Shown: positions 6,369-51,700 of the stretch, piece after piece
Layout of the letters: each line of letters begins with the position of its first letter
How positions within the stretch are numbered: position 1 is the first letter of the stretch
From: Nereocystis luetkeana
Lineage: Eukaryota > Sar > Phaeophyceae > Laminariales > Laminariaceae
Assembly (NCBI GenBank): GCA_031213475.1
Contig: JARUPZ010000016.1
Location: forward strand, 3,281,140 to 3,345,139
DNA: 64,000 nucleotides
Direction: 5' to 3'
Notes under the pieces: model-generated
Database searches by the model: none
Told to the model about the DNA's origin: nothing
What the model saw: the letters and a program-made list of their open reading frames with translations, nothing else
Position numbers and translations under genes: made by a program

Positions 6369-9300
6369 TCATGCGGGGGTGGCCACCTCGGTAGGAATGG
6401 CGGTAACGGCAACAGCCGACGCACCAGCCACCGGTGCGGGCGAGTCAACGCCGTCGTCGGCCAAGGCCAGCCGGGGTGCGAGGCTCCTCTTCCTCTTCTT
6501 GTCCTGCTTCTTGTCCCTCCTGGCGTGTCGCGGAGCAAACGGCATTCGGGTAAGGGGGTGTGGGGGGAAATGGCTTATCAGCCTTCTATTGATATCACGA
6601 ACAGGAACCCATACCTCCCAGTTCACACATGCGAGCAGGACAAGAGAACAGAAGACGGCAACCGCTACAGCGCAAATAATACGACGCGCAGAACCCCATT
6701 CCTCGGGCGTTAATAGTTAGTACGGTGGGGCCACACGTTGTCGCCAGGCTTTTCCTTTTTTCCTGCCCCTCATTTAGTCGAAAGAAGCATGCCTAGAGGG
6801 CTGCCAGGCCTGTATCGACTCAAACACGTTTTTTCTCCCCCCGAAACAACCGATTTCCCCATTTTAAACAGCTATCGCAATTAAAACCCGATGTTCTACC
6901 GACAAATATAACAGCACTGTGCATAGCGAGCCGTAGTATACTACCGCGCCATCATGGTTAGAACGCCACAAGAAAAAAATCAAGGTAACGTACAAGGTAC
7001 CCACTTTCCATCCCGGTAGACTTATGTGGGTGTGGGGGTCCACCTCGTGTTCCCTGCGCCTACACCAGCAGCGCCGGCGAGCATGCATGTAGCAAACCCA
7101 TACCTAGGCTCAACACAAACAAAACACTCAACACACTTTACCACACAGAAGTTGCTCGGGGAGCAGGCAGCCATCCGAGCACTCGCCCCTTAAACCCCCG
7201 CCATCATGCAATCGCATAGGGCACGTAAGCACAACCAAAACTCGACCGGCCATGTAGCACAGCGCACGGTACTGGAGTTACAGCACTCGCGAGGCTTATA
7301 TACACCCGCGAGGTATATGTAGGGTGAGGTGGCAAGCCCCCCCCCCCCCGCTCGCGCCGAAACAAAATATCCAGGTACACACTCCTATTTTCATAGATAG
7401 AAGTATACCGGTACTAAATTAAAACCAAGTAAAGAACAAAAATAGACAAAAATAAAGTTAATTTTAATCCATACAGAAATCCCACCCCACCGGTTTGTTT
7501 TTCAATCGGACATCAGGGGGGGGTGCGGGGAGGGGGGGGGGGGTGTACTCATGTCAGACATGGTCGTATCACCCTCGCATCCTTATATACGATGCCGGGA
7601 CGGAGCACCTCGGGTCTCCACCGACCAGGCAGACATTGCTTGCACCGAGCGCGAAGGGCCGTGAGGTACTCGCTGAGTCGCATGAAGGGTGAGCTGCATC
7701 CTACTAAGAACCGCTTTCGAGGCGAATTTTCCTGTGTATGGATGACAGCGTCAACGAACTAATTTACGTTCTGGTGTGGCCATTTCCAGAGACAGAGATA
7801 GGTTTACTACATAACTACCTCGTGGGTGCCTTACCATATACACACTGCGTGATACGATCACCCCCCTCGTGCGGAGTCAAGGTTCTCGCCGCACGAAAAT
7901 GATCTAACTCGACCGCCAGCCGTGGTGACCGCCAAAAATAAAAAACGGTACCCTGATTGTCTAGCCCACGCAGTGAAAGGCGTGTTTTACAGCGCCGTCG
8001 CCAACCGACGCCAACCCAACCTATATAAAATACGAAGTATATAGGGGGGGGGGAGAGGGTCGTTTTATACGTTTGCCGTGGGCTTTCCCTCGTCTTCCAC
8101 CACGACCCCCCGCCGCCGTCAAAACTAAAAACACTGGTCACTGAGCGGCGTCGTTGGGCGTACCTCTTGCTGAAGTTGTTCCACCCGCTCGGGCTCTTCC
8201 CGGCGTTTCTCGTGCCCTTGTGCTTTCGGAGTCCCCCGCCGAGCGCTTCGGTGGCGTCCTCGTCAGCCACCGCCGCTTTCAAGGTGTACCCGTCCGACCC
8301 GCCCTCTCCTGGTGAGAAAGTGCGATTTCCAAGGGCGTGTACGACAGAGAAGCGGCGCGGGTAAAACGGCGGGAGAAACTATAAATACGCGACAAAATGG
8401 TGGACAACGTGACAACGTGAGAAGCGGGGTGTGTACTCGATAGGAGAGATGTACTCGATTTCATGCATGACCGTAGTCGTATGACCATAGACCCTCGCAT
8501 CCCTACAATGCCGGGACGGAGCATGTCGGGTTTTCACCGACCAGGCAGACATTGCTTGCACCCAGCGCGAAGCGCCGTGAGGTGTCTGGCGAGTCGCTTG
8601 AAGGGTGAGCTGCATCCTACTAAGAACCGCTTTTGAGGCGGACTTGCGTTTAAATGACAGCTTCAATGAGTTGATTTAATTTCCGGTGTAGGCATTTCCA
8701 GAGACAGAAGCGGGGGGAGGGGGGGGGGGGGGGGATGAAAAACACGAAACAAAAGTGAAAAAAGGTACCAGGTATGTTCTTTAAAATAGAAACGAGGAGG
8801 AAAAAAAATGAAAGGAATGAAAGAACAACAAATAAAACTCACTTTTTCGCCTCTCCCTCCCAAATCTATGCTCCGCGCCACCGCGCCACGTCCAACGCTC
8901 TACCATACGCATACGTGCACGCTACCACAGCCAGCTCCCGCGCTGCGGAGGTTCGCGGACGCGATGCTTCAACGAGAGAGCGGAAGGCCGTTGGTAGGTA
9001 TCAACAGCTATATACCGTACAGCACTATCACACTATTACGGGGGACCATAGTTAACAGGACCTATGGTACACATAAAAACCTACCGGTATATGTTTACCC
9101 ATTTCTACTAACAATATTTGGTCCTGTTAACTATGGCCCCCCGTAATAGGATGATAAGATAACACACACCCTCCGATGCATTTCAAAGCTGGTCTTCTTG
9201 ACAACGTGGAGAGGGTAAACGCCGAGCGACGCGTCTGTGGAAAGAGATCTCCACACAACATCTTCCCCAAGCTGCCCTTTTTCGTTGTTGTACGCCGCCA

Positions 9301-26600: not shown

Positions 26601-29600
26601 TCGTACTTTCGACGTATTGTATCATATCGGGCGTATTTTTTCCCCTCCAATCCGCTTGAAACTGCACCCCCGCGTTTGCTTACGCGGATATAAGCAACGA
26701 GCATCTTCGGAGTACCAGGCGTCGAAAACCGACTTCGTATCGGTTTGATTCGTCGCTTCGGAGTAACTTTTTGCTTGAAACCCGCCAATAGTCAAAACAT
26801 ATACCCCAGACAAACCTGCTGTAGGAATCACTCCGTCTATAAAAAAAAGATATAAAACGTTCGGTACAAACATTTATTTGACATTAACGATCCTTAGATT
26901 TACCGACACATATACGTATTTGATACCCTGGTACTTCGTACGAGCATTATAAGTGTTACCCCCTCAAAGACCCTTAGATTTACCGACATACCAGGTACGT
27001 ACTTGATACTTTCGTGTAAGTTTTACCCCCCTCACCGGGCTTTATGATCGTTATGCACGCACAAGCTGCTGTACCGACGGGGACTGCTTGACGAAGGCGC
27101 CCACTCACACAGCCGGGAGGAGGGGAAAGGGGACGACCCGGGCGAAGACCTTCATCCTCGCGTTTCGGCTCCGTTTGGGGTGGAGGTGCTGTGCTGCGCC
27201 TATTCCGGTGACGGGCAACTGTTTGCGGTGGGGGCGAGCGACGGCGTTGTCAGGGTCTACAGCGACAGCACCAAGGTGCATGGCGTGAATTACATTTTTG
27301 TTCGAACAGCAGTGCGACAACCAAGCGGTGTCAGTGGTCGGCCACTGGCGTGTTTCCTTTTTCGCCACGGCCACTAATCGAAAAAAAAAAAAAAAAAAAG
27401 GTGTCGGTTCTTCCGAGCTACCTCCGAGAGGCGTAGATATGACTATTCAACTCCTGTTACATGTATATATGGGCATGGCGCCTACTCTGGGGCAGTAGAC
27501 GTTGAATTGAATATGCGCTGCACCTTTGTCCGATCGCAAACGAAACAATAATAATAGTAATAGTGTCGGTCTTCAGCAGCCGGAATGAGGGTATCATTGA
27601 GTTAAGACCCGTACACGGGGTTTCCTTGTACGGGCTCCCTTGGACTCCTACTTTTTTCGGTGGGTGTTTTTTTGTCGATTTGATCATACGTGGAAACACT
27701 CATGGTGCACATTTACCAGATAGTCGTCGGGCGGTATTTTTTAAAAATGCAACAGAAATAGTAAAAACCCCAACGCTCTGCAACATAATATATCATACCT
27801 GCTGGTAGATTGCTTGCTGCCCGCGCCGCAACGTGTGGGGCAAAAAACCCGCCACACCTCGGACAGAAATATCATCTACAGATCAGATAGATCATCTATA
27901 TACTAACCTGCCGTAATTAGGTGTTGTGCAGGATCTGTATGGTGCAGAGCTAGCTCAGGAAACTTGCACTGAATCATGCAGCTTCTACGGCTCCCACCCG
28001 GCGACATGAGCTAAATCATACAGATCATACACATCATACACATCATACACATCATACACATCATACAGATCAGGAATATATATATATATGCCCTTAAAAT
28101 ATTTACTATATATCTCAAAGTGGGGATTAGTGACCTGTCTGTAGAACGTGTGAAGAATCCCGAGAGGGTTGGACACACGCAGAAGTCGCACGTCCGAGAA
28201 AACATAGAAGTAAGAAACGACGGAGCATGCCGGCAGTCAGTACGTAGACGATGCGTGAAGCATGCCAAGCAAGCAAAAATTGAGCGTCGTCAAAGAAAAC
28301 AAACCCATGGTGACATAAATACAAAAATGTCGAGAATCGGCGTCTAATGCGTGACGCATGCTACTACTGCAGACGGCGGCCGCCAGGCATATACTGTAAG
28401 AAACGTCAAAATTTTGGCGTCGAGGCTCATTTTCTTGTTTTGTTCTGCTGCCTGATGAATCGTCTACTAAAAACAAGCAATTTACCTGATAATGGTTAAC
28501 ACACTCAAGTCACTAACCAATACATTATATTCCCTCACCCACACCACGCCCAGTAAGAAACGTGCCAATAAATATGCACACTGCTGTATACTGTTGCACA
28601 GAGCAAAAAAACTGGATATCTGCTCCACAAATAAACGCACCTGGTCTGCCTGCCTTGGGTTTATACCAGCTAGACACACAGATATATCTGTAAGTGTGTA
28701 TATATGCGGGATTTGGTGTGGCACCCGACCCTGAGCACCGTTTCTTCGGTCGAATGTTGTGCTTCTTGCCGTGAGAAAACAAGCGAGTGTCACTTTTCTT
28801 TCTCAGACGAACGGCCTAAATTTCCTCATGATGAGCGGGTGCTCCTCCGTCTAGTTGTTGCTGACACACGTCTTGCCCGCCTGCCTCCCAGGAGCTGGTG
28901 GTGGAGCTGAAGCCTGGGCTGGCGAAGGGGGCCGGCCACAGCAGCAGGATTTTCAGCGTCAAGTTTCACCCTGATGACCCAAACGTCATAGTCAGCGGCG
29001 GCTGGGTAAGCTGTCCACTATTTGGGGGGGAACATATGATCGTAATCAGAACCAGACGTGGTGTGTAAACATGATAGGGGTGAATGTTTTTTGGGTCCGC
29101 AGTGGGTTCTGATTATTATAACCCCTCGCCACGCTGCTCCTTTAGAAGTGCGCCAGCGTTTGTTGGGGACAAACTACTTGAAATTAGTGGTATGGGGTAA
29201 TTTTTGAAGTAATAACAAGGGATGACTTGTTTTTGCTGTTTACCGCGGGGTGGAAATGGGGCCGCGCTAGGTGTATGTGGTCAGTCAGACTTTCTCTTGC
29301 TGGAATGGGTTCAAGTCCTCAGCATATGCTACCCTCCTCTACCCCACCCTACACTACCCTACCCTACGTCATTCTACCCTATCCTACCCTGCCCTGCCCT
29401 ATTCTATTCTACCCTGCCCTACCTTACCCTGCCCTACCCTACCTTGCCCTGCCCTACCCTACCCCGCCCTACCCTGCCCTACCATACCCTATCCTATCCT
29501 ACCCTACCCCTACCCTACCCCTACCCCTACCCCTACCCTACCCCTACCCTACCCTACCCTACCCTACCCTACCCTACCCTACTCTACCCTACCCTACTCT

Positions 29601-32600
29601 ACCCTACCCTACTCTACCCTACCCTACTCTACCCTACCCTACCCTACTCTACCTTACCCCACCCTACCCCACCCTTCTCTACCCTACCCTCGAAGAACGC
29701 ACTGCCCCCACACGAGCAAAGTTCGCATGTTCTCGCGCGAGCATGGGCGTTTCGACATCTGCACATCTGCACGCTACATATACATCGACAACGAAGAACC
29801 ACAACTACAACCAACAAAATATAACGAAAATCTGCTGATATACGAGTTTTGCTGTATCCTACAACACGCAGCGATTGAGCTTTGGTGCCGATCACTCTTG
29901 AAGCATCTGACGAATAATAAAGAGGCAAACCAAGGGGAACATCGCGTGGATGATTCTTGGCTGTAACACGCCCCCCCCCCCAAAATAGATAAAGGCGAGC
30001 GTCCCATCTTCCGCCGAATTGGTCACATTTTTATCGCAGACGTTTTCGAGGCGAAACGGAAAAACGTATTCGGTGGAACCAGGGGTGCACCACGAACAGC
30101 CCCAACCCCCCCCGACAGTTACATTCCTAAAAAGGTCAAAACGAAAATACAAAACCCGGTGGGGTGGTGGATTTATTTTTTGTTTGCTTCGTTTCACTCC
30201 CATGAATACATGGTTTTTAGGTGTTCACCAGATCAAGGTCGGGACACTTCGCATCCCTGGACAAGTTTGCCCATTAAGTCGGCATTCTTAGGTACTCACG
30301 TGTGTTGTTCGCTTAGAAATAGAAGATGAGCAGCTTTAGGCCTTTCGTCCACGTGGAGACGGAGAGCCAAGCTCGTGCCTCGCTGGGAAAACCCCTCCCG
30401 TTTTCCATCTAAGATACGCCTCCCAAGTACTACAAATGCGATCCCAATACCTGAACCCAGGTATTTACCGCGCTTTCAGCCTCATTCAAAGCAACACCAT
30501 CACACAGGGCTGTTATTATCGGAGAACCAGAACTTCCTGGACGCCTGAAGCCGACCTTCCGACCCGAACTTGATGGAGTGCCAACGCACCGTGCAGCAGA
30601 ATACTTGTGAAATTATTTCCATAATTGGGAGCTAATTTCGAAATATGTGATTTATAACAGAGGGCGAAATATCGGGAAAAGTTAAATGTCACAAACTTGA
30701 AAATTATTTCACGAAGATGGAAAAAAAAAACAAAAAACCGCCCTCCCATAATAACAGCCCCAAGCATACGCCTGTCCCCTATCCGGGTCTCGAAAATGGT
30801 TACGGGGAGTCGGATTTTAGTGTTACGTGCGCTCATGGAGTAACCACAAGAAAAACTTGTATTTACTACAATAGCTATAGATATATACACAGGGAGGTGT
30901 AAAGTGTAAGGCAGTATAGGCCTAGGTATCGACCACTGGTGGCAGGTGGTTTTTCTGACTGCCAGGCAGATTCAAATCGCAAAGACTGGTTGGCCGCAGG
31001 AGAGAAAGACCAAGCCCTCCTGGGCGAGGCAGGTTCAAATCGCAAACAGTGGCTGCCAGGTCGAAGGCAGATATGCCACACTCGGGAGAGTTGCACACAA
31101 GCACTGTGGTCGTAAACACTCGGCGGGCAGAGGGTATATTCGAACGATTAGTTAAGGTCTCAGTCCGTCGGGCTACTGGTAAAAGGTTGACCAATTACCC
31201 ACCGAATCCAAGCCTTATAACACTCTCCCCCCCTTCGGAACAGCGGGGCCCTTGGTCTTAGTGTGGGGGCCGTCTACGTACGTACGTGCCTACTCCGCAA
31301 TTCTTCACAATCTCTGGGGACCCAGGCAGAGTGTTTCATCAGATTCTTGACGTGAGTGAGAATCGAACTCGCGACCAACGAACGACCCATAACCTGCCGA
31401 TAGATGCCAACGCTGTTAAGGTCTTAGTCCGTTGGGCTAGTGGGCAAGAGGGGACACCATAGCAGGGGCTTGATCAGCGGTAGGAGAGGTGGCGCCGCAC
31501 AGAAGAGCGAGTGGAAAGCCGAAATCACTCTGTTGCCTTCAAGGTAGGTTTATATACAGAAGCGTAAAGTACTTCCAATTTCTGAACTTTCTGAAAGTGA
31601 ACTGGGACGCACTCGTGTGTGCCCTTCCTTTTTTTCTTCTTCTCGCTTTTTGATCAGATAGTCCCGCGCCATGTTGTTCACGCGTGAATGCTGCGCGCTT
31701 GGACTCGTAGAATCGTTTTGTTGCGTCGTCCGATCCGAGAGCTCACACACACAGCGGTCTGAGAGACGCCGAGCTCGGGCTCGTTGTTTTGTCTCTCCCT
31801 GAATCCCTGCTCCCGACACGCATAACGCAGGGCTTCCAAGCAATACGTACGTTATCCTTTTCCCGCCTCCTCGATCCTGGATCCTGTTTTCCGGGCTTTC
31901 CAGACCAGCACCGCATACCTGGTGCCAATATACCATAACGTTAGACAGTAGGGCCTTGGACGGAAATCAACGTGTCGGTGCGGCCGCCCTCGCGCGCCGT
32001 TTCGGTCTCTGCGAGCAGGACAACTGCGTCCACGTGTGGGATGTCGGGAAAGCGTCGACCACTCGCACGGTGTTCGGGCCTCACATCTGCGGGAACGCTC
32101 TCGATGTGGTGGGCGACATGATCGTCACCGGGTCTTGGAGGGACGACTGCCAGGTAAAAAACTAAGCAGCAAGAGCCATGCCTCTACTTTGCGGTGACTA
32201 TGGCAGTGCGGTTCTTCTACAGTACGGTAGGAGAGGCATGCCTCCACGGTACGGTAGGGGGGGGGCATGCCTCTACAATGCGGTAAAGAGAGGATCCATG
32301 TCTCTGCAGTGCGATTACTTTACAGTGCGCTTCCTCTACAGTGCGGTCCAGCGACAGTACGTATTACGGGGGACCATAGTTAATCGGACCAAATGTTGTT
32401 TGTAAAAATGGTGGAATACATAGGTTTTCATGTATACCATAGGTCCTATTAACTATGGTCCCCCGTACTAGTACGGTAGGGATGGGGTACGTTTGGGCCC
32501 AAAACATCCTGACTGACCGGGCTCCTTAAGGGCACTGACAGCAATGAGGAACTAAGCCAACAAGGTTTAAAATTGCATTATCGTTGGAATCCCTTTTGGG

Positions 32601-34652
32601 TTCGAAAACATTATTGAGCCGTGCTAAAGGCACGACCAACTGCCGAGAGCGCCTATAACAGCGACGCGAGTCGGCGGGGGAAGAAATCACTGATTTTTTT
32701 CTCGTGACAAATACCCGAGGTGCGTACCTTGATGAAGGGGGGGGGGTGTACTCGATAGGAGAGATGCACTCGATCTCATGCATGGCCGTAGTCATATGGC
32801 CATGGACCCTCGCACCCCTACAATGCCGGGACGGAGCACGTCGGGTTTCAACCGACCAGACAGACATTGCGTGCACCAAGCGCGAAGCCCCGTGAGGTGT
32901 CCGGCGTGCCGCATGAAGGGTGAGCCGCATCCTACTATGAACCGCTCGTGAGGCGGACTTGCTTATGGATGACAGCTTCAATGAGTTGATTTAATTTCCG
33001 GTGTAGGCATTTCCAGAGACGGCAATGGGAGTACTATGTAACTGCCTCTTGGGTGCCTTACCACAAACACTACCAGGTACGTGATACGGTCAATTCCCTT
33101 GCGCGGAGTGAAGGTTCTTTACCTCACAGAAATTAACCAACTCGACGATCAGCTGTGGGCGACCGCCAAAGAAAAGAAAAACGGCACCCTGGTTGTCTAG
33201 CCCACGTTGTAAGCGGCATGTTTTTCAGTGTCGTTGCCAACCGACGCAAACCCAACCTATATACAATAGGGGGAGGGGGATGGAGAATCGGGTTTGACAT
33301 GAGTTGGAGGGGCTGCTTAAAGACCCCGGATCTGAGTCACGACGTAAGAAGGACAGCAATCAGAAAGCCAAGAGATCTGTTTTCAAAAAGATGATGTGCA
33401 AAACTCAACCCGTGATAAACGCCTGGCTGGAGAAATACAGAAGCCTCAATGTAAGTTACCCGCCCCCCCCACCCCCATCTGCACGACCCTCCCACCATTG
33501 GGCACGACCCCTCCGTCCAGCCAAAACAGAGGCTGCCAGCCATAGTTGATACTCGTAGAGCTGTCTGGGAGAAAGTCTCAAAACGGCGAGCTGGAATAAG
33601 GTGGGGTAGCGTAGTTGAGAAAGTATGGAAGGATATTGGGGGAAACCAAGAAGAGCTGATGTCCGCCGGGAAGTTTGGGAAGTACAAGGCAGGAGTAGAA
33701 GAAATGATAGAAAAAAGGGAAAGGCTAGCGCTACGAAACGAGGTGGAATCGGAAAAGACCTAGAAGGAATAGGAATGAAAAGGTATCTGCACGGCCCAAT
33801 GGACTTCGCGAAAACGCTGAAACTGCGCTTCCGTGTAGGTGACCTGGACCTGCCACAAAGAAGAGACAGGTATTCCAGTAGCCAGGAGGAGGAGGAAATA
33901 GATGTACAGATGTGCCGTGTGGCAAAGCAATAGAGAGTAGAACTCACGTAGTAGGAGAATGTGAAATATACAAGGAGGAACGGGATATGTTATAAGAGGA
34001 GATGAGGGAAATAGACGAATGTGACATGGAGGAGTTTGACACACTAGATAGCAGCGAGAAAACGATCGCTATCCTAGGAGATAGGTGGTGGCCACAGGCG
34101 GCTAAACAGGAAGGGGATAAGATTAGTAAAAAGTTTCTATGTAATATACTGGTATGGAAACAACGTAATGAGCGCCCAGTTGTTGGAGGTGTCTCTATTA
34201 GGAGTAGGAACGGTGCTCCGTCTCGAAAGGGATGCGTGGTCAATGGTCAAATGACTGAGGCTAGCAAAAAATGAGTACCCCCCCCCCCCCCTCCCCTCCG
34301 AAAACCCGACATGCTCCGCCCCAACATTGTAGGGATGCGAGGGTCTCTGGTCATACGACTACGGCCATGCATGAGATCGAGCTTATCTCTCCTATCGAGT
34401 ACCCCCCCCCCCCCTCCATGGTATTGTAGGGATGCGAGGGTCTATAGTCATACGACTACGGCAATGCATGAGATCGAGCACATCTCTCCTATCGAGTACA
34501 CACACACCCTCCCCCCTACCCCGGGGGGTCAAACATTCTTCCGCGAATAATCTCCCACTCGCGGCATCATGCACGGCCGTCGGTAGTCGACGCCGCCCGT
34601 CAAACTCCTCCACTTTCCCGCCCGCCCGCCCGCCCGCCTGCCCGCCTGCCCG

Positions 34653-34746
<94 letters not shown>

Positions 34747-37714
34747 TGCCTGCCTGCCACACGCTCGTCAAAACAAAACGAAACGAAACGAAAAAAACAA
34801 AAAATCGCGCGCGCGCTCAGCTGGAAACGTGGCACCTCGACTCCGGAGACGCTCTCGGCTCTCCGTTTTGGAGCGGGCTCGGCGAGGGGGTGCTGTTGCA
34901 GCAAGGCTTAGGCCGCAAGTGCCGTCTCTACGCAGCATCCTTCGGCGGGCCGGACGGCTTCAAGGGGAAGTTCATAGCGGCGGGTGGGGGAGAGGGAGCC
35001 AACGAAGTAAAGGTCAGACATGTATGTATAGGAGAGGGGGGGGGGGTTCGAGGCGGGGGGGGGGGGGGCGTACTCATTTGTTGCTTGCCTTAGTCATTTG
35101 ACCATTGACCACGCATCCCTTTCGAGACGGAGCACCGTTCCTACTCCTACAAGAGACACCTCCAACAATTGGGCGCTCATTACGTTGTTTCTATATATGA
35201 CATAGAAGTTTTTTGCTAGTCTTCATCCCCTTCCTGTTTGGCCGCCTGTGGCCACCATCTATCTCCTAGGATAGCGATCATTTTCTCGCTGCTATCTAGT
35301 GTGTCTCCTCCATGCCACGTTCGTCTATTTCCCTCATCTCCGGGGGGGGGGGAGGGGGGGGGCTACTCGATGGGAGAGATGCACTCGATCTTATGCATGG
35401 TCGTAGTCGTATAGCCATGGACCCTCGCATCCCTACATTGCCGGGACGGAGCATGTCGGGTTTTCACCGACCAGGCAGACATTGCTTGCACCAAGCGCGA
35501 AGCCCCGTGAGGTGTCCGGCGTGTCGCATGAAGGGTGGGCTGCATCCTACTAAGAACCACTTGTGAGGCGGACTTGCGTATGAAAGACAGCTTCAATGAG
35601 CTAATTTAATTTCCGGTGTGGCCACTTCCAGAGACAGCAATAGGAGTACTATGTAACGCGGCGGGGGGGCTAACGCGGCGGGGGGGAGGGAGGAGTACTT
35701 GATATCATGCAGCCGTAATCGTATGACCATAGTAGACCCTCGCCGCGCGGGGGGGGGGGCGTACTCATTTGTTGCTTGCCTTAGCCGTTGGATCATCGAC
35801 CACGCATCCCTTTCGAGACGGAGCACCGTTCCTACTCCTTAGAGAGAGACACCTCCAACATTTGGGCGTTAACTACGTTTTTTCTCCCTATGTCGCATAA
35901 AGGCTTTTTTGGAGGGAGGGAGGGAGGGAGGGGGGGAGGGAGGGGGGGGGGAGGGGGAGGTAGGGGGGTCGAAAATAAAGTTAATAGCGGCGGGGGGGGG
36001 GGGAGGAGAGAACGCGCCAAACAAAGTGATCTGGCCTTCATGCGCTAGACAGTGGTGGGTAAGGAGGGGGGGGGGGTGTACTCATTTGTTGCTTGCCTTA
36101 GTTGTTTGACCATTGAAAACACATCCTGGGGGGAGGGGGGGCAGGAGTGGATGGTCTACGCGTGCAGCTGCCTCGTACGTAGGTACTGTAGTAGCTCCTT
36201 ATCCACTTCGCCGATATTCGGACGGGCGCTATCATCACGGACACCGTGTTACATCTTATATACCCGGGCTGTTGACGGGGCAGGGAAACCCTCGCGAGTT
36301 GGGTCGGGTCGGGTCGGGTCGGGTCGGGTCGGGTCGGGTCAGGGTGACCTGGCTCGACCTGTGAATTTTGAAAAAACCTCCTGATCCGACCCGACCCGAC
36401 CCTACCCGAAATAGTTTGAAGACATTCTGACCCCACCCGCGGGTCGGGTCGTGTGCTGTATATGCTCCGTTCCGGCATTGTAGGGATACGAGGGTCTATG
36501 GTCATACGACTACGGCAATGCATGACATCGAGTACATTTCTCCTATCGAGTACACCCACCCCCCCTGTTACGGCCGCACCCAACAGGCAGTTGGGTAGTA
36601 CCCCAATTGTTGTCCCTGGAAGTGATCACACCCGCTAATAAATCAACTCATTGAAGCTTTCATTTACTTGCGAGTCCGCCTGACAAACGGTTCTGAGTAG
36701 TATGCAGTTCACCCTCATGCAGCTCGCCGAACATTTCAGGGCGCTTCCCGCTTGGTCCATGCAATGTCTTCCTAGTCGGTGAAAACCCAACGTGCTCTGT
36801 CCCGGCATTGTCGGGATCCGAGGCTCATGGTCATACAACCCTTCCGCGGCCGCAATCAGTAGTAGTAGTGGTAGTAGTTGTAGTTGTAGCAGTAATAGTA
36901 GCAGTAGCAGCAGTAGTAGTAGAAGCAGAAGTAGTGTATACGACTTGGCCCAGGTTCGATGTATTTAATTTTATATTCTTACCACGCTTGCCATTCCGAC
37001 AAGCAAGGCGCAGCGTAAGCCAATCGCACAAAAAAAATGAAACAGCAACAAAATACTGAAGACGCATAAAAGAACGACATCCCAAACCAATTCGACGTCG
37101 CGGAAATCCTCCTAAACTTAAACACGCCTGCATCTCATCCGCCAAACAGCCACTGAACATCATCCCCCCCCCACTCCTCTAACCAGTTTCAACGAAGCAT
37201 CGACCTAAAACCCGCTGCTCATAAAAATACTCCATACGATAACATCTCTTCAAATCCCCAGGTAGTTGGGGCTAGGGTTATGGTGATAAATTTAAAAATC
37301 GCACAAACATACCTGGTATGCTTCGACGATTTTCTTGTCCAAGCTGGGCCGAGGTATCACATAAAAATCCTTCCACTGCCACCGTCACGATCACTTCGAC
37401 TACGTACTACCACTACCCCACGAAGAGGTATCGGGGGGGGGGGCGTTGAAGCTTATGCTGCACACACGCAACACTGCTGTCGGCTGGCCAAACCCAATAA
37501 CAATATTTGATAGGTATTCGACGTCTCCAACAACAAGACGCTGGTCGGCAGCCTTCTCGGCCTGTCGGCAGGGGCGATATCGCTAGCGTTCGGCCCGAAG
37601 GGTGACAGGCTCGCGGTGGGACTGGCGGACGGCAAGATACACCTGATGGACATCGAGGCCTCCGCGGGTTCTGCGCAGGGGTCCGTCGGCGGACTAAACA
37701 TCATGGGGTTCTAA
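23632..37714 (+). CDS. WD40-repeat protein, family with GPHICGxALD motif
   Basis: Eight plus-strand exons join in phase: 23632-23813, 24588-24831, 25398-25478, 27066-27275 (start uncertain, 27120 also fits), 28892-29005, 32019-32153, 34821-35012 and 37514-37714 (TAA 37712-37714), giving about 452 aa. The N-terminus is acidic (SSDQEEKQLVLGEEDDGDGD). WD40 strands follow: VLCVAFSYDGRYLLACCGDG across the first junction, GNSHGEIQLWHVPSAK, VEVLCCAYSGDGQLFAVGAS, HSSRIFSVKFHPDDPNVIVS, GGWDNCVHVWDVG, FGPHICGNALDVVGDMIVTG, SWRDDCQLETWHLDSGD, AAGGGEGANEVKVFDVSNN and LAFGPKGDRLAVGLADGKI. The joined motifs across introns support the model. It probably forms one seven-bladed propeller. Its partner and pathway are unknown. 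A low-complexity insertion lies in exon 2. Introns up to 3 kb carry many transposon copies. Confidence 0.82.
24137..24224. mobile_element. Hairpin MITE B (CTGCAGTCCC core), copy 1
   Basis: Inverted arms CCTTTAGGACCGCGGTCCCG and CGGGACTGCAGCCCT surround a short centre with AAATTACTTAGAATT. The same arms occur at 39.9 and 55.2 kb. No coding capacity. Confidence 0.6.
25020..25145. repeat. Large imperfect hairpin, AT-rich
   Basis: The arm TATTTTCCCGATATTTCGGT pairs with ACCGAAAT...GGGAAAATA-like sequence on the right (TTTCGGGAAATACCGAAATA), centred at about 25084 (CCTATAGG). It lies in an intron of the plus-strand WD40 gene. It looks like a foldback element. Confidence 0.55.
25486..25570. repeat. 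Dispersed repeat I, copy 1
   Basis: The phrase GTTCTTCAC, then AACCCGTTCTTCTAT, then TCGACATCCGGGCACCCAGC is shared with three copies at 62.4-63.0 kb. This copy starts directly after the donor of exon 3 of the WD40 gene. Confidence 0.5.
25735..25845. repeat. GGGTC-repeat inverted element, copy 1
   Basis: GGGTC units on the left (GTGGGTCGGGTCGGGTCGG) and six GACCC units on the right (about 25806-25838) form a foldback around a 40-bp centre with GAGAGTTTGAAAATC. Two more elements of this plan lie at 36.3 and 40.7 kb. Confidence 0.65.
26885..27030. repeat. Imperfect tandem duplication
   Basis: A unit of about 85 bp that starts CCTTAGATTTACCGACA and ends in a TTTTACCCCC/GTTACCCCC phrase occurs twice, in an intron of the WD40 gene just before exon 4. 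Confidence 0.6.
27880..28090. repeat. Dispersed element E, copy 2, with ATACACATC array
   Basis: The core CAGGATCTGTATGGTGCAGA, CTCAGGAAACTTGCA and GGCTCCCACCCGGCGACATG matches the elements at 9.7, 49.6 and 56.1 kb. It is flanked on the right by an array of CATACACAT units (28018-28073) and an (AT)n run. Confidence 0.6.
29030..29200. repeat. Inverted-repeat MITE remnant plus piece of hairpin MITE B
   Basis: CGTAATCAGAACC at 29040 faces GGTTCTGATTATTATAACC at 29104, around an 50-bp centre. Immediately right, TTGGGGACAAACTACTTGAA (29163) matches the centre of hairpin MITE B at 55.2 kb. Confidence 0.5.
29330..29690. repeat. (CCCTA)n pentanucleotide array
   Basis: About 360 bp of CCCTA units with CCCTG and CTCTA variants. 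The open frames over it are repeat artefacts. It lies in an intron of the WD40 gene. It differs from the CCCTAA telomere repeat by one base per unit. Confidence 0.9.
30229..30490. repeat. Dispersed element F, copy 1
   Basis: About 260 bp aligns with 38018-38275. Shared landmarks are AGGTCGGGACACTT, CTCGTGCCTCGC, TTTTCCATCTAAGATACGCC (one base differs) and CGATCCCAATACCTG. No coding capacity and no inverted ends were seen. Confidence 0.65.
31140..31448 (-). repeat. tRNA-derived repeat (SINE-like), two partial units
   Basis: Minus strand at 31331-31448 has an A box TAGCCCAACGGACTAAGACC and, about 70 nt on, a B-box-like GAGTTCGATTC. A second, partial unit at about 31150-31180 has the same A-box phrase. 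A third relative at 37895-37985 has the phrase in a rearranged order. It lies in an intron of the WD40 gene. Confidence 0.5.
32364..32468. mobile_element. TA-flanked MITE, copy 3
   Basis: Inverted ends TTACGGGGGACCATAGTTAA and their complement (right end GTAC for GTAA), with TA on both sides. It lies in an intron of the WD40 gene, 210 bp after exon 6. Confidence 0.8.
32739..33265 (-). mobile_element. SINE-like element, longest copy
   Basis: About 520 bp on the minus strand, from GGTTGGGTTTGCGTCGG near 33260 to GAGTAC and a C-tail (G-block 32739-32748). Inner marks are CTCTGGAAATGCC, CGGCATTGTAGGGGTGCG and ATGACTACGGCCATGCATGA. It sets the 5' end of the family with the copy at 7516-8045. A B-box-like GGTTGAAACCC occurs near 32850, but no convincing tRNA or 5S head was found. 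Confidence 0.75.
33303..33452 (+). other. Orphan exon-like segment with strong GTAAGT donor
   Basis: An open plus-strand stretch reads ELEGLLKDPGSESRRKKDSN and then MMCKTQPVINAWLEKYRSLN, ending exactly at a GTAAGT donor. It lies in an intron of the WD40 gene between a SINE-like copy and a LINE. It cannot be an exon of the WD40 gene without splitting the blade that exons 6 and 7 form cleanly. It may be a gene fragment carried in by a transposon. Confidence 0.35.
33530..34292 (+). mobile_element. LINE 3' part, C-tailed
   Basis: Plus-strand frames carry the end of the LINE ORF2 protein: VWEKVSKRRAGIRWGSVVEK, VWKDIGGNQEELMSAGKFG, LRFRVGDLDLPQR in another frame, and then DTLDSSEKTIAILGDRWWPQ to SRNGAPSRKGCVVNGQMTE. 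Frame changes interrupt it. The 3' end is GTGCTCCGTCTCGAAAGGG, ATGGTCAAATGAC, AATGAGTACCCCC, with a C-run at 34277-34290 and no poly(A). The 5' end is truncated. Confidence 0.75.
34300..34520 (+). mobile_element. Two short SINE-like copies in a row
   Basis: Two 3' fragments of about 100 bp (34302-34413 and 34420-34520) follow the LINE tail in the same orientation. Each has AGGGATGCGAGGGTC, CATACGACTACGG, CATGAGATCGAG and ends in CTATCGAGTAC plus C-rich tail. This makes a LINE-SINE-SINE chain joined tail to head. Confidence 0.75.
34616..34760. repeat. (CCTG)n / (CCGC)n microsatellite
   Basis: Roughly 33 units of CCTG, with CCCG units at the left end, lie only 60 bp upstream of exon 7 of the WD40 gene, so they sit in the pyrimidine-rich end of the intron. 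Confidence 0.9.
35023..35345 (-). mobile_element. LINE 3' fragment, C-tailed
   Basis: Minus-strand copy of the last ~275 bp of the LINE (GATAGCAGCGAGAAAATGAT... AACGTAATGAGCGCCCA... GAGTACGCC), with its tail visible as G-blocks at 35034-35070. It begins right after the donor of WD40 exon 7. Confidence 0.7.
35341..36125 (-). mobile_element. Cluster of SINE-like and LINE 3' fragments
   Basis: Four 5'-truncated minus-strand pieces follow each other, each headed on the plus strand by its G-block: SINE-like 35341-35660, SINE-like 35660-35745, LINE end 35748-35900 and LINE end 36064-36125. A (GGGA)n stretch lies at 35908-35965. Repeated insertion near earlier C-tails is likely. Confidence 0.65.
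36296..36455. repeat. GGGTC-repeat inverted element, copy 2
   Basis: Seven GGGTC units at 36301-36340, a centre with TGAATTTTGAAAAAACCTCC, then GACCC units and a final GCGGGTCGGGTCG. The plan and centre resemble the element at 25.7 kb. Confidence 0.65.
36461..36840 (+). mobile_element. Two SINE-like copies, plus orientation
   Basis: A 3' fragment (36461-36570) ends CTATCGAGTACACCC. A longer inner piece (36638-36840) starts AATCAACTCATTGAAGC and runs to CATGGTCATAC, where it stops without the tail. It is followed by a (TAG)n-like stretch at 36858-36930. Confidence 0.65.
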
Positions 37715-39120: not shown

Positions 39121-39325
39121 GGGGGGAACAAAGCATGTGCATCAGCGAGCGGTGAACACTTCAAGATCTACGCAGGGTGGGCCCTTTTTTTCCCCCTGCA
39201 GTGCTCCTTTGCGTGGCACGAACAGCGCGTGTGCTGCTGCATTTTTGGCTGCTGCTGTCTGTCGTGTTCCTTCTTGTGGCCTGTTCCGTGGCATTGGAGA
39301 GCATCTATTATTAGGATTCGTATTA

Positions 39326-39430
39326 TTACGGGGGACCATAGTTAATAGGACCTATGGTATACATAAACACCTATATATTTAACCATTTTTACTAACAATA
39401 TTTCGTCCTGTAAACTATGGTCCCCCGTAA
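39326..39430. mobile_element. TA-flanked MITE, copy 4
   Basis: Inverted ends TTACGGGGGACCATAGTTAA and complement. The left flank is TA and the right flank CA, so the target duplication has decayed or the end has mutated. It is intergenic. Confidence 0.8.
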
Positions 39431-39892
39431 CAGTATTATTGCGTTTGCCGTCCGTTAATGTGCACGCAGCATGAGCTTCAACGTTGGTCACTCATAAACA
39501 CACCCTGAAAGGAAAACCTTGCGATTGACAACTGGTTTGAAAGTGTAGAATACAAACATCCTTGCGCCTGTACCGCGGTCGTGGCAATACAGAGTGGCAG
39601 CTAGCTGTGTGTCCACCTCTTCTTGCCGGCTGTATCCTCGTAGTCGTGGGACTAGCTGTGCGCGTCCACCCCTTGCTGAGACACATTCGTTTGTTGATTT
39701 TGCCGTTATTGCCGTTTCTGTTGCGTCTGCCACTTAGGCCCAAAATATAAGGAACGTTTACATCAAATAGTTATATGCTAACGGTCCCAACATTGTGGGT
39801 AAGAGTGGTGTGTTGATTATACCTCGTATAATAATACTGTAATATATAGGAGCCCGGTGTTTTTGCGGGCACCAAGGCGTCATTTTGGATTT

Positions 39893-41950: not shown

Positions 41951-41956
41951 TCACTA

Positions 41957-42061
41957 TTACGGGGGACCATAGTTAATAAGACCTATGGTATACATAAAAA
42001 CCTATATATTTAACCATTTTTACTAACAATATTTGGTCCTAGTAACAATGGTTCCCCGAAA
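41957..42061. mobile_element. TA-flanked MITE, copy 5
   Basis: Inverted ends as in the other copies, right end diverged (TTCCCCGAAA). TA flanks on both sides. Intergenic. Confidence 0.75.
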
Positions 42062-45733: not shown

Positions 45734-48700
45734 CTGTTCAGGTTCGAGATCGACGAAAAAAAGATGCCCATGAGAACGACCACAAAAAAAAAACGGCGCG
45801 CCGAAAAAAGCGGGGGGGGGGGGGGGGGGTTAGATGGGTGAAGGGTGGACGGTCGAGACAGAAGGGGGGAGGTGACCAAGCAATATCTGCAGAACAAAAT
45901 ATCAACCATTCTACCCAGGACAACCCCTCCTACCCCCCCACCACCGACACATTTCACTGGCCAAACATTGAGTAGATGTGCGTGCGGAGAACAGCGTTGC
46001 TTTTTAAGACGCACGCCATCATTCAACATCCTCACGCACACCGGAAAATAAACTCTGAAGCTGTCATCCATGTGCAGGTCTGCCTCACAAAAGGTTCTCA
46101 GTGGGATGCAGCTCACCATGCGACTCGCCTAACACCTCACGGGGCTTCGCGCTTGGTGCACGCAATGTCTGCCTGGTCGGTTGAAACCCGACGTGCTCCG
46201 TCCCGGCATTGTAGGGGTGCGAGGGTCTATGGCCATACCACTACGGCCATGTATTATATCGAGTACCCCCCCCCCCCCCCCAGCTCCCTCTCGAAAGGGA
46301 TGCGTGATCAATGGTCAAATGTAAGGCAAGCAATGAAATAGTACGCCCCCCCCCCCCCCCCCCCTCACATCCCCAAGCACAACAACGCCCACGCATCCTC
46401 ACCAGCTTAATCTTCTTAGGCACCAAGGGCAAGGCAGCCTTACAGTTCACCCCCTCCGCTGCCCTCTTCGTCCCTGCCCCTTCCCCCTTCCCCTCCTCCT
46501 CGTCACCATCATCACACAAATCCAGCACCACTACTTCGGGCGCTCGGCGCTTCCCCCCGACCCCCACCCCCCCCGCCGCCGCTGGCGAGCTCGCCCCAGG
46601 AACAAGCCCAATTGCGGCGGCTGTGGCCGTGGCGGCAGCGGCAGCAGCGGAGGGCGACAGCTTTGAGCCTGCCAGGACACAATCACCACCACCACCACCC
46701 CTACCCGTCCCGCCGACACCGTTCGCATAAAAGGGGATACCGGCAGCAGAGGCGGCAGCAGCAGCGGCAGCCGAACCGACGCCGCCACCCCCGACCCCGC
46801 CCCCCAGCGTGAGGGAGGCGGGCACGAGCCGCTTGGCCTGGATGAAGGCAGCCGAGTGCAGGGCCCTGATACGCTGCTTCGTGGCGGCCGGGGAGAGGGG
46901 AGGGTTCATCGCGCAGAGCAAGGTCATCGGCTCGGCCGCGGAGCAACCGAGTACTGACGGGGTCGATGCGCTCAAGCCACCGGTCTGGCAGGAGATAACA
47001 CCACAGGAAACACGAGAAAGGGGTAGAGCATACGGGAGGGGGGGGGGGGGGGGGGGAGAAGTGTGTGGGGAAGGGACGAGGGGAGGGGGGGGATGGTGAG
47101 GGCACGGAGGGGGGGAATGGGAAAGATGGGGATACGAGAGCTATTATAGTAAGAGGGTGGGGGGTGGGGGGTGAGCCTGCCCGAAACAAACCATAAATAA
47201 ATACTACCCCCGGTAGCAGGTAACGGTCAGCTGTGAGTTCGACCATGACAACTTGGTGGATACTGTGGACGACAGGGTTTGGGAAAGGTATAGAGAAACA
47301 ACCTTCACATTTGCCAATGGAAGGTACATCGGGAAACACACCAAACGCTCAGAGGAGCAGGTGTCGATGAAGCAGAGTGCGGAGGCAGCAGAAGCAGTTA
47401 GCAGTTGCAGACGGGTTTGCTTTGTCGCAAGGCACAAAATTGAGGCCAGCAATAGTTAACCCCATGTCCTCTCAGCAACATCGGGCGGGATTATCTCAGA
47501 ATGGCGCCCTCGTCTTCTTTTCGCTGTCAGCACTGCCGTCGTGTTCAACGTCGTCAACTTGTCTCCTCCCTCTTCTTCATCGATATAGGCATGTGCTGCT
47601 CGGTGTTGGGAAACGTCGGGGGCGACGGCAGTGTCGCCGGCTTGCCGTTCGCCGCTTGCCTCTTCCTGATTTTCTCCCTCCTCTTTGCGTTCCGGCGCTG
47701 ACTCCCCGTCATATCGAAGGCGTCTCTCTCCGTGGTTTCTCTCTCTCTGCGAAAAAAAGAAACTGAAGGTATTCAGGAAGCCCCTGTCGTTGTTGCCCCT
47801 CACATTACCCCATCTCGCCAAAAATCCAGTCCGTGGTCGATGGACAGGCTCCAATAACTCAGGACCGGAAGAAACCCCCATGAAATTAACTAAACTGAAA
47901 CCAAAACAGACACGTACACATCATAACTGAAGCGCACCGGACACCTTGAGGCGAAGACATAAAACTGCATGACGGCATCATTCAGAAAAAACGCGGGGCA
48001 CCTTGGTGTTTTCCTTCTCGGCCCCCGTCTTAGTTGCTCCGTGCGCCTCGAGCATAGAGAGGGTCGTCTCGCTCAACGCCTTTTGGACTCCGTAGTCACT
48101 GGCCGAGCCTGGCGATACGGTGCCGCAAGCGTGTGGGTGCAGTACATCGTCAGGAAAGTGAGGATGGATCCAACGCAACGTATGTAGATCCAACGGACGA
48201 ATCCAACTTATGGATCTAACGGACGGATCCAACAGGACGGTTCCAACGGACTTTTACAGAGAATTCCTCCTAGATCTTATCCAACGGGCTAGAGTGTTTC
48301 AGGCGATATGCCATTGCACACTACAGACTCGAGGTGTATCAAAGAGAGGAAACGAAAACAGAGGCAGTGTGTATAATTTGGAAGCGCGTGATCTGTCGAG
48401 GCGTCAAACATAATCAACTCCCGATTTCTTGGGTGCTGTCGCGCGCTGACTGCTTACAAAACGTGTCCGTTCCTCGACGTGGACAAAAATATACCAGGTA
48501 TACGGTATCCGCACACGGAAGGGACCGGTTGGGTACTAACAAAAGAACACTCGGACGTTGCTTAAAATTCCGGACAGTGTCTGAATACGAAAAACCCCCC
48601 CAAAAAACTCAAATTTCCCAGACAGAGTGGTAAGAATGAAATACAATACACTTGAGTGTTTTGGATGTCGCATCGAGTTTTTCGACATACCGAGCTTTCG

Positions 48701-51700
48701 ATATACTAGATCATATCGGGCGTTTGTTTTGCTCTCCGTCCCCGGGCCCCCCAGTTTTTTTAGGCCTATTATACACTGAACGTAACGGCAAGCTTGGATG
48801 TTCGTATCAAAATATCGACATCGTAGCGATTTGACAACAATCTTTTTGATTGTCGATATTGTATCGAACACGAATCTCGTTCGATCTCCCAACAACACAA
48901 TACCATCCCAGAGTGATCATACCGTAGATGCAGCTGGCGATGAGGAGATGCGCATCGTGCACGTCGGGCTTCCACCAGGAGGGGAGAGAGGACGTCTTCA
49001 ACTCGCGCGCTCGGGCCAGGCGGCCGGCGAACGATTGGATCTGTAAAAAAAAAAAAAGACACCGCCACACACAGTCCACACAACGACAGAAAAAAATAAA
49101 GCGCGATGAGCTTATATGCTGGTAGGTACACATATATTGAAAGAACGGAGCGACCAGCTTATCGTTTCAGACTATATTTGAAAAACGAAACACAAATCCT
49201 GCTACAATAATTCAATCGAAGACATTTCATTCATGAACGTCACCCACCCCTACCCCGATTCACTAATACCTCGCCTATGATGTAGGTAACGAGGCATGAT
49301 TACTAATGTTCAATTCGCGACACTTATCTATTACACGGAGGCGGCCGGCGAACGAGTGGACCCACCAGACACGGGCCACACGCACTTCATTCCGCCAAGG
49401 GAAACGAGGAACGAACGATCGACCCGTTGGTAATGGGGTAATTTTTCACAGCCGCCTACAATATTAGGAAGGGACCCTCTTTTCGAGCTGGGTGGGGCCG
49501 GGCCGTCCTCACATTTCCGAACAAAACGGTACCAGACACACTGGTATTGATGGAAGCGTTCCCACCTAGGACAGATCAAACAGATCATGATTCATCCATC
49601 TGCATATAGATCATAAAGTTCCTAACCGGCCGTTGTCAGAGGGCGTGCAGGATTTGCACAGTACAGATCCGACCAAGAGGACTACTCAGCTCCCACCGGG
49701 CAACATGAGCCATATCCTACAGATCATAAAATCCATCTTCCCTTTCCCCCGAGAGATCCGGATCATCAAGTGGGACTCGATCGTCTGTGCGAGGTATGGA
49801 AGCTTGGAAGCGTTCCGTCCAAACGCTTCCAAGCATACAATCGCGAAGCATGAGAACCCTAAAGCCGCGACACAAAGTTCCGTCCGTCCGCCGGCCCGGG
49901 CTGGATGTGACGCTCACCTGCTTGAGCTCGGTGTACATCAGAAGGCTGGCGCGGAGCCGTGTAGCCTTCGCTGCCGACTTGAGAAGCGATATCAGGGCAT
50001 CCTTCTCCTTATCCTGCAATTCACCCGCCATACACAGAGTCAGGTCGGGCCGAGTTAAGCCGAGGCGTTCCCGGTCAAGGGTAAGACAAGGCAACGCAAA
50101 GCAAGAGGCAGATTGGGTCGAATTAAGCCGAACCATTACGGGTCAAGTCGTGTCAAGGGTAGAGGTAAGTGCAGGCGGCAAGAGCAGAGGGTAAAAAAAT
50201 GTCAACACGAGGGCAAGGGAAAGGCAAGGCAAGGCAACGAAAGGCAAGACACGAGCCAGGCCGAGTTAAGCCGAGTCAATCCGGGTCAAGGGTAGAGGGA
50301 AGTGTAGATGGCACGAGCAGAGTATGGGAAAATGCAAGGGCGAGGGGCAGGGGTGAGGCAAGGCAATGCACAACAAGCGCAATGCAATGCAAGACTTCCT
50401 TCCAAATGGGTTTCCTCGTTAGCACAGGAGGCATCTCTCTCTGAACGTAACGTCATCACCATCATATTTCCCTCCCGTCAAAAAGGACGGCCACTCACCG
50501 AGACGCGCATTCCCGTGTTGCCGCCCGTGGGCAGCCTGAGCCCGTAGTTGTCCCCCGCTGCTATCGCCGCCTTCGACAGTAGGTAAAGACCAATCGACTC
50601 CGCCCCCTTCGCCGAGAGGTCGTTCCCGTTCGCCAGCTTCAGCCACTGCAAGCACGTCGAGAGGTCGTGGCAAATAGTAACCGCGCGCGTCAGTCACGTC
50701 GTCAGTTTCTACCGCTCTGTCCGCTAATATGAGCACCGCTTGGATTGAATATAGACGCAAAAGCCATCCCAATATTTAGGGACAGGTTGGTACAAAAAAA
50801 ATACTACGGGCACAGGCGGAGTTCCTACTTTTAACGCCGCCAAAAAAGAAAAGACGGGGTTCTCCCCTTTCCAGATGGCGGAAGCACTTCCGTCGTGCGT
50901 ATTTATACTACGGGTTATGTATGACCTCAAGCAGGATATTGTTATACATATATGTATATCCTTCAATGAAGGACACGCATTCTCGCGCTGCGGCACTCAG
51001 GGTGTGTGGTGTGCGAATACTTTTTGCAAAAAATACTGCTCCGGGGTTAAACGTAGGTAAATAATTTCAACACGAGTACTTATACTGGCATATACACGAA
51101 GGAATTATATTATCACGACGGACAACCGAATTCAGAGCCAAATACGGTAAACTAAAAAAGAGGAACAAAGTTCATGTTTTACGTCCGTCGTGGGCTCTGA
51201 TTGTTCCTATGGTCCCTCGACATAATAATATTAATATTAATGGTGTCCTTTTTCAGGAAAAGCTCTTCGGGGTTCTGAAAAAAAAAAAACATACCTTAAC
51301 GAGGACAAGGCCGGCCCAAAAAGTTCTCGATAGTCATGGGACGATCGATTTGCTGAAATATAACCAAATTCACGACAGTTTGTGAAAAACATCTCATCAC
51401 AATCGTTAAAAAACGACTGGGGGGGGGGGGGGGGGGGGGGGGGGTAGGGGGTACTCGATAGAAGACATGTACTCGATCTCATGCATGGCCGTAGTCGTAT
51501 GACCATAGAACCTCGCATCCCTACAATGCCGGGACGGAGCACGTCGGACCTCTTCCCGAGACATAAAACCCTAGTAAAAAAGGAAGGGGATAGCTACCAT
51601 AATATCTCACCGACATCTCCAGGACGGGTCGGAGCGGCGACTCTGGCAAGCAGGGCGCGCTCGTCGTCACAGCCCCATGACTCAGGAGCATCGATATCGG

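Follow-up and report, generated by a model that had tools for sequence, protein, structure and literature searches.

A LINE and its short non-autonomous partner in the brown alga Nereocystis luetkeana end in poly(C) and appear to favour C-runs as insertion sites

The window analysed here is a 64,000-nucleotide (64-kb) stretch of the brown alga Nereocystis luetkeana (GenBank assembly GCA_031213475.1, contig JARUPZ010000016.1, positions 3,281,140 to 3,345,139, forward strand). It carries copies of two families of mobile element, a long interspersed nuclear element (LINE) and a much shorter element, both of which end in GAGTAC followed by a run of C; we describe how the two families are related and how they may choose their insertion sites. 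A first-pass annotation, made from the letters of the window, had placed a LINE and a SINE-like element (SINE, short interspersed nuclear element) with this common ending near the middle of the window. We recovered both at that place, at 33268-32748 on the minus strand and 33523-34278 on the plus strand; the LINE copy is present but is only ~0.76 kb long. The features at this locus are as follows.

33268 (5′ end) to 32748 (GAGTAC end), minus strand: full-length short element (nt 1-523 of the majority sequence), 91% identity
32746-32737, minus strand: 3′ C-run of the 33268-32748 short element
33523..34278, plus strand: 5′-truncated LINE, last ~758 nt, with GAGTAC end
34278..34291, plus strand: C14 tail of the 33523-34278 LINE, with the next element behind it
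34300..34402, plus strand: 5′-truncated short element chained behind the LINE tail
34402..34414, plus strand: C13 run of the 34300-34402 short element
34420..34499, plus strand: second 5′-truncated short element in the chain begun by the 33523 LINE

The short element that ends at 34499 has as its tail a C-rich stretch with ACACAC and no pure C-run, and the interval from 33268 to 33523 of the window gave no LINE match. ‘About a dozen’ short-element copies had been counted in the first pass; we find 13 in the window if the query itself is counted, and 7 of them pass a stricter 3′-end test.

Searches covering the 465-Mb assembly (1987 contigs) gave at least 41 matches to the LINE 3′ end, from 766 first-look candidates, and at least 44 to the short element, from 7644; because the best 40 candidates were scored per search, these copy numbers are lower bounds. 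The assembly also holds at least 150 matches to the EsV-1-7 repeat (PF19114) that exceed the curated cut-off, whereas 14 control genomes gave none. At 20 LINE loci there is a single 3′ end, with 5′ ends at many positions, and 3 of 30 short-element loci are truncated, the other 27 extending to no more than 17 nucleotides (nt) from a common 5′ end and 20 of these including its first nucleotide. Matches run from 28 to 4399 nt for the LINE and from 51 to 523 nt for the short element, again with one 3′ end and many 5′ ends, and LINE matches under ~70 nt may be cross-matches between the two families. The body of the short element is ~523 nt without its C-runs, and the whole element is ~0.55 kb. A common 3′ end with different 5′ ends, as target-primed reverse transcription (TPRT) would give, had been proposed from the window, and the 5′ truncation seen here agrees with it, as do the target-site duplications described below.

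An alignment of the 3′ ends of the two families spans 72 columns, of which 54 are identities, 11 mismatches and 7 gaps, and its score of 49 lies beyond the maximum of 24 reached among 2000 shuffles; the ~75 bp of shared sequence with small gaps noted in the first pass is thus borne out. The C-run and chain counts given here and below were made on 57 non-overlapping stretches (329,903 bases), with minimum lengths of 100 nt for LINE copies and 90 nt for short ones. Three copies with too little flank were left out, as were, before counting, L060 (near-identical to L059), L001-L009 (overlap) and the overlapping part of L016. At least eight C occur in nt 2-13 past GAGTAC in 37/41 LINE, 30/32 full-length short and 14/16 truncated short copies; in most copies of either family, then, a C-run stands in place of poly(A), as first proposed. 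Two hairpins are common to the minimum-energy folds of both tails, but their z-scores are ordinary (-0.96, 0.31 and 0.35) and covariation in the 3′ tail is within shuffle range (the observed percentage paired was reached by 170 of 500 shuffles), and we do not claim a conserved 3′ RNA structure.

The LINE has the coding content of a retrotransposon. Profile searches found Exo_endo_phos (PF03372, E 1.1e-11) in an open reading frame (ORF) of locus L045 and RVT_1 (PF00078, E 6.1e-26) in an ORF of locus L040, and the latter ORF matches R2 and LINE-1 proteins in the PDB. The frames of the endonuclease (EN) and reverse transcriptase (RT) domains lie in order in L045, the RT profile match itself coming from L040. 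Judged by its sequence, with EN and RT domains, 5′-truncated copies that keep one 3′ end, and target-site duplications, the LINE is a non-long terminal repeat retrotransposon of the apurinic/apyrimidinic endonuclease (APE) type; a DNA-transposon reading was set aside, EN and RT being present. Its full length is estimated at ~5.9 kb, by arithmetic from one copy’s coordinates and L045. At L059 a 5′ segment of the LINE is inverted, with breakpoints that meet at the same LINE position, 4084, and L060 is near-identical; twin priming gives 5′ inversions of this kind. L045 is itself interrupted at 1549-3041 by ~1.5 kb that includes GACCCG-type tandem repeats. In the LINE 5′ region (L045:298-810) there are tandem ~60-nt units with T-runs, and upstream matches of nt 1-68 suggest that the unit number may vary between copies.

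By walking upstream, we found the LINE 5′ end near L045:59, behind a C20 run. When L045:59-280 was used as a query, the start fell in its nt 1-3 for 23 of the best 40 copies and in nt 1-21 for every one of them. Several of these matches lie just upstream of the next LINE segment on the same strand (for example C1:12076855/12077621, C14:11117439/11118214 and C5:6366852/6367715). Eight LINE 5′ junctions were read, and all of them carry TCCTCTAA, which in seven is directly preceded by 4-10 C; at L092 the junction is C10-TTCCTCTAA, immediately after the tail of a short element. A separate run of five or more C (C5+), distinct from the element’s own C-tract, lies farther upstream in 6/8 of these full-length junctions, and two of the eight LINEs (L089 and L092) are inserted in the tail of a short element. 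On the 5′ side of the short element at L018, L021 and L026, the duplication is followed by 3, 5 and 6 C, respectively, and then by TATTTT. The LINE (GGATGGGTTGGCGTCG...) and the short element have 43 nt in common at this end, with 36/43 identical (BLAST E 4e-8) and an alignment score of 51, against a maximum of 26 among 5000 shuffles. Because this 43-nt stretch and the 3′ end are both shared with the LINE, the short element, on sequence comparison, is one that carries sequence of both LINE ends.

This bears on what the short element should be called. The first-pass annotation saw in it a SINE that borrows the tail of a partner LINE; the shared 3′ end stands, but the 5′ end is also LINE-like and we found no RNA polymerase III (Pol III) head in tRNA and Rfam searches. 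Specifically, a tRNA search of the window found none, and an Rfam search of the short element gave no match. Its majority sequence also contains an internal run of ~19 T, and such a run is expected to stop Pol III. The ~400 nt in its middle have no convincing match in L045, the sole full-length LINE copy compared. Having a 3′ end homologous to that of a partner LINE, it is a SINE sensu lato; the 5′ part derived from tRNA, 5S or 7SL RNA and the Pol III promoter of a SINE sensu stricto were not found; and, as in elements of the RIME/NARTc type, both ends are shared with an autonomous partner. Because the LINE 5′ end is shared and no Pol III head was found, ‘LINE-derived non-autonomous element’ is a better name for it than SINE, and it probably uses the LINE machinery. 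Two other candidates were rejected. A Pol III SINE of known origin has no tRNA or Rfam support, and the 5′ end matches the LINE; for an HDV (hepatitis delta virus)-like ribozyme at the 5′ end, the Rfam search gave no match and the LINE and short-element 5′ folds (z-scores -2.08 and -1.19, respectively) differ in shape.

The flanks on the 5′ side show that C-runs are not confined to the tail. The 25 nt that precede the 5′ junction hold a C5+ run in 24/41 LINE, 13/16 truncated short and 29/32 full-length short copies, compared with 4.6% (away from copies) to 5.2% of random positions, and a run of five or more G occurs there in 0/89 copies. Because the full-length short element may own part of its upstream run, the fair test is the 41 LINE and 16 truncated short copies taken together, and in these 37/57 have the upstream run. 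There is a hint, and only a hint, of TA just before the target C-run: it is found at 9/42 sites versus 63/1053 background runs (p 0.001), A alone not being enriched, and the signal is weaker when the background is limited to runs of at least eight (14/189, p 0.018). Nesting, duplication or the lack of a C5+ run within 45 nt removed 28 copies from the TA test.

We queried the assembly with the joined flanks of six loci; spanning empty matches were obtained for L053, where 13 of the 49 listed matches span the junction, and the other five gave no spanning empty site. L011 and L026 have repeats as flanks, and the matches to these end at the junction or just beyond it. Five unoccupied paralogues of the L053 site carry C6 and C5 (both at L052), C5 (a second site at L053), CGCCC (L096) and C5 (L097), in each case preceded by AACACA or AACATA and followed by a sequence like TGGGACGAA. 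At the occupied site, AACACA, C6 and TGGGACGA come before the LINE, which ends in GAGTAC and is followed by C15 and TGGGATGAA. At this one locus, therefore, the empty site carries the repeat, as C5-C6 in four of the five paralogues, and on this comparison the C-run very probably predates the insertion. The first-pass annotation took the C-run as a tail and had named C-runs at empty sites before insertion as what would tell against its proposal; four of the five L053 paralogues have such runs, and so do the upstream flanks of most copies examined. Insertion still seems to add C, with C15 at the occupied site, ~nine C more on the 3′ side than at the empty sites; slippage after insertion or homopolymer sequencing error may be the source of the extra C. 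The repeat that hosts L053, GGGTGATAA...AACACA(C)5-6TGGGACGAA, is found at L052:3135-3189, L052:3818-3769 and L053:223-259, with more copies in the genome, and is possibly another transposable element. A flank-pair search confined to the retrieved stretches matched solely the LINE and short-element families themselves.

Target-site duplications were sought in 57 copies (27 LINE and 30 short), a different set from that used for the upstream C-runs. We required that the sequence after the left C-run recur after the right C-run with at least five non-C letters shared. Seven of the 57 copies pass this strict test, and no copy did when left flanks were mismatched with right ones in 1000 permutations. 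The duplicated sequences are GGTACTTTA (L040), TGCGCATAAGCA (L049), TGGGA (L053), GTTCGTC (L012), TCAAACG (L017), GCACAGTA (L018) and GCTCGCCTCTA (L033); all seven duplications start in the C-run and extend into the flank, and the flanks at L040, L017 and L018 are pieces of older elements. The left C-run is shorter than the right at L049 (7, 14), L053 (6, 15) and L018 (4, 11), longer at L012 (11, 6), L017 (16, 6) and L033 (15, 6), and nearly equal at L040 (21, 20). Counting non-C letters replaced two earlier duplication tests that discriminated poorly, their controls being inflated by chance or C-rich strings; one of them found at least five letters in 10/57 copies, against a control mean of 3.2 and maximum of 8.

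Copies also follow one another in chains. The 3′ end of another element lies within 60 nt upstream on the same strand in 6/41 LINE, 7/32 full-length short and 7/16 truncated short copies (20/89 overall), and on the opposite strand in 0/89; before short cross-matches were removed the same-strand count was 28/122, with host tails from both families. At L040 the LINE is inserted behind the C-tail of a short element, with a clear duplication. Because an insertion that ends in GAGTAC and a C-run recreates the target, copies can stack in one orientation; the chaining, and the fact that it runs one way, would follow from a target that has an orientation and is renewed by the tail. The window has three chains, at 33523-34499 (plus), 35884-35055 (minus) and 46038-46364 (plus), and its copies beyond those listed above are as follows.

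35761..35884, minus strand: 5′-truncated LINE, 115 nt, with C11 at 35759-35749
35364..35657, minus strand: short element, 295 nt; downstream in sense, C-runs 35362-35354 and 35352-35342, then a LINE
35070..35341, minus strand: 5′-truncated LINE, 268 nt, directly after C-runs 35362-35342, with its own C14 at 35068-35055
46038..46266, plus strand: short element, with C16 at 46266-46281
46283..46344, plus strand: LINE 3′ end directly behind the C16 of the 46038-46266 short element, with its own C19 at 46346-46364
8433..8707, minus strand: 5′-truncated short element, with C16 (8734-8719) ~11 nt upstream in sense
51451..51547, minus strand: 5′-truncated short element, with a C26 run at 51444-51419; 5′ side without a C-run
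36462..36553, plus strand: 5′-truncated short element; 5′ side without a C-run

The window has 50 runs of at least eight C on the two strands, and 12 of them stand directly after an element end.

With shared 3′ and 5′ ends, C-runs flanking most of the copies studied, duplications that start in C-runs, a family of empty sites, same-orientation stacking, and EN and RT domains all read from the sequence, we consider it highly likely that both families spread by TPRT, the ~5.9-kb APE-endonuclease LINE together with its ~0.55-kb non-autonomous derivative, with a preference for pre-existing C-runs and a tail that renews the target. We predict a nick in the bottom (G) strand, at or inside a C-run; a 3′ C-tail on the RNA would anneal to the G-strand exposed there and serve as template, with C gained at some sites. 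The top strand would then be cut ~5-12 nt beyond the C-run, as the geometry of the duplications suggests, giving a duplication that starts in the C-run; many copies would be left truncated at the 5′ end, and each insertion, ending in GAGTAC and a C-run, would offer a fresh target to the next. The short element would be mobilised in trans by the LINE. The choice of site may be set by the endonuclease or by pairing between RNA tail and G-strand, and pairing would account for target choice, C gain at some sites and the behaviour common to both families. We give roughly even chances to this last step, that poly(C)-tail/G-strand pairing sets the sites and that elements which begin and end in C act as a self-seeding generator of poly(C) and of one-way chains.

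Several observations weigh against a C-run-directed TPRT. Copies without a C5+ run within 25 nt upstream number 20/57 (17/41 LINE and 3/16 short). Among them, L045 is a full-length copy whose miss is an artefact of the reference ending at 4400 nt, L057 is split by an insertion, L059 is inverted, and L043, L044 and L061 lie behind a short-element end where only 2-4 C in a row are left; L048 is inserted at ACCTCC with no long C-run on its left, and the rest are unexplained. Of the full-length LINE 5′ junctions, that of L088 has only CCCC and no separate C5+ run, and that of L092 a single run. The strict duplication is found in only 7/57 copies, and empty sites at only one of six loci tested. That locus, L053, is also rearranged, because its right flank is present twice, an identical second copy lying ~0.6 kb away (C9:2538065-2538197), by local duplication or a second event. 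The gain of C is not general, the right run exceeding the left in 23/37 LINE matches and 8/24 truncated short copies (counts that predate the removal of short cross-matches from the LINE set), and C-run lengths may carry homopolymer sequencing error. Finally, the copies are not a random sample, because they are the best-scoring matches of the searches or neighbours of these. Because 20/57 copies lack the upstream run, several without explanation, the C-tract is, on the junctions read, better described as a strong preference than as a strict specificity.

The source of the C at the junctions can be read in two other ways. The elements could be a conventional SINE/LINE pair with poly(C)-tailed RNAs and no selection of sites for C, and the longer right runs at L049 (14 vs 7), L053 (15 vs 6) and L018 (11 vs 4), the position of L048 at ACCTCC without a long left run, and the 20/57 copies with no upstream C5+ run would all fit this. 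Set against them are the upstream C5+ runs of 37/57 copies and the C5-C6 at 4/5 empty sites of one locus, and we consider such a pair very unlikely; poly(C) as no more than a tail was rejected on this ground, because C-runs are already there at one locus’s empty sites and lie upstream of most of the copies studied. Conversely, the RNAs might end at GAGTAC and all of the C at the 3′ junction come from the target, that is, targeting without a C-tail, which would leave a C-run on both sides and could leave a right run (6) shorter than the left one at L012 (11), L017 (16) and L033 (15). We regard this as unlikely, given the right run of 15 at L053 versus 5-6 at its empty sites and the right runs longer than the left at L049 and L018, although slippage or homopolymer error could mimic these differences.

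The spread of the copies and the origin of the short element have rival explanations too. Recombination or tandem duplication of DNA between C-runs, with no retrotransposition, could give stacked arrays with C-run boundaries and the duplicated flank at the L053 locus; a process of this kind is highly improbable in view of the single fixed 3′ end with many 5′ ends, the flank duplications, the EN and RT encoded by the partner LINE, and the 5′-inverted LINE at L059 with its breakpoints at one LINE position. A genuine SINE identity for the short element, with a head from a small Pol III RNA and a borrowed LINE tail, would be compatible with C-run targeting and would suit the ~400-nt middle that has no convincing match in one full-length LINE copy. 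It is quite unlikely given the absence of a tRNA in the window and of an Rfam match, the 43 nt at its 5′ end homologous to the LINE 5′ end, and the internal run of ~19 T.

Other repeats of the window are listed here for completeness. An older LINE relative, ~75% identical, lies at 12327-11553 (minus strand) and ends near a C-run at 11560-11552. A ~110-nt repeat family is present in both orientations at 32359-32473, 39321-39435, 41952-42066, 56680-56794 and 14436-14546; with ends like CGGGGGACCATAGTTAA ... TTAACTATGGTCCCCCG, it resembles a small inverted-repeat element. Simple-repeat arrays of (GCCT)n and (CTACC)n lie at 34620-34758 and 29329-29690, and long open frames on both strands across a triplet-repeat array at 57937-60193 are probably repeat-rich coding or low-complexity sequence.

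LINEs that prefer simple repeats are known. Waldo, Kibi, Koshi and others target microsatellites, and the LINE described here resembles them in choosing simple-repeat sites; it differs in that the target is a C-run, and it is not assigned to those lineages. Copies of Zepp of Chlorella and its relatives are stacked by insertion into the simple poly(A) tails of earlier copies, a likeness to the stacking seen here, whereas in N. luetkeana the tail is poly(C), the copies are spread over many contigs and there is a non-autonomous partner. A known RTE-clade LINE and its partner likewise have a common 3′ end that finishes in a simple repeat. Other LINE tails are described as poly(A) or as TAA, TGTAA or TTG repeats in the part of PMC3747384 that deals with them. 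According to section 4.1 of PMC13295347, there is no general consensus on what simple repeats do at the 3′ ends of LINEs and SINEs, and the targets that flank Bov-B copies seldom look like the repeats; here, in contrast, the target often matches the tail. RTE elements of Lepidoptera, whose 3′ ends consist of simple-repeat units, generate microsatellites, with slippage proposed; the abstract of PMC2887409 makes no claim that they insert into repeats already in place.

Two non-autonomous systems are also comparable. In another brown alga, Ectocarpus, the main text of PMC12477816 describes RTEX-N1_Ec32, a ~600-bp element with >6000 copies that has its 3′ end in common with RTEX-1/RTEX-2_Ec32 and a 5′ region whose origin the authors did not determine. 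The likeness is that of an abundant short non-autonomous element of a brown alga that shares its 3′ end with autonomous LINEs; here, by contrast, the 5′ end matches the LINE’s own and insertion is into C-tracts, the families being compared by description only (PMC12477816, main text). The words ‘poly’ (as a whole word), ‘homopolymer’ and ‘C-rich’ are absent from the main text of PMC12477816, whose figures or supplements may note C-runs. The name RTE-X for the LINE described here is suggested by the Ectocarpus paper alone. RIME/ingi and NARTc/L1Tc of trypanosomatids are pairs in which the short elements are truncated versions of their partner LINEs, and RIME and NARTc are, like our element, short and non-coding and retain the partner’s 5′ end; the shared part is a 77-nt promoter/ribozyme there and 43 nt with no Rfam match here, and C-tract targeting is not mentioned in the passages of PMC4748587 that treat them. 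A search of titles and abstracts found no description of a poly-C LINE or SINE, the bracketed form ‘poly(C)’ being unsearchable and most subscription papers outside its scope.

Taken together, the elements are of a known kind, a simple-repeat-preferring LINE with a non-autonomous partner, and the repeat in this case is a C-run. The earlier reading was right about the kind of mechanism; to it we add that the C-run is a target renewed by the element and that the partner carries both LINE ends. Because the target often matches the tail, and occupied sites can be set beside empty ones, the pairing hypothesis is directly testable in this system. If the Ectocarpus and N. luetkeana families are homologous, the short element offers a candidate answer to the origin of the 5′ part of RTEX-N1_Ec32, and the element family described here is a possible source for part of the genome’s poly(C) tracts.
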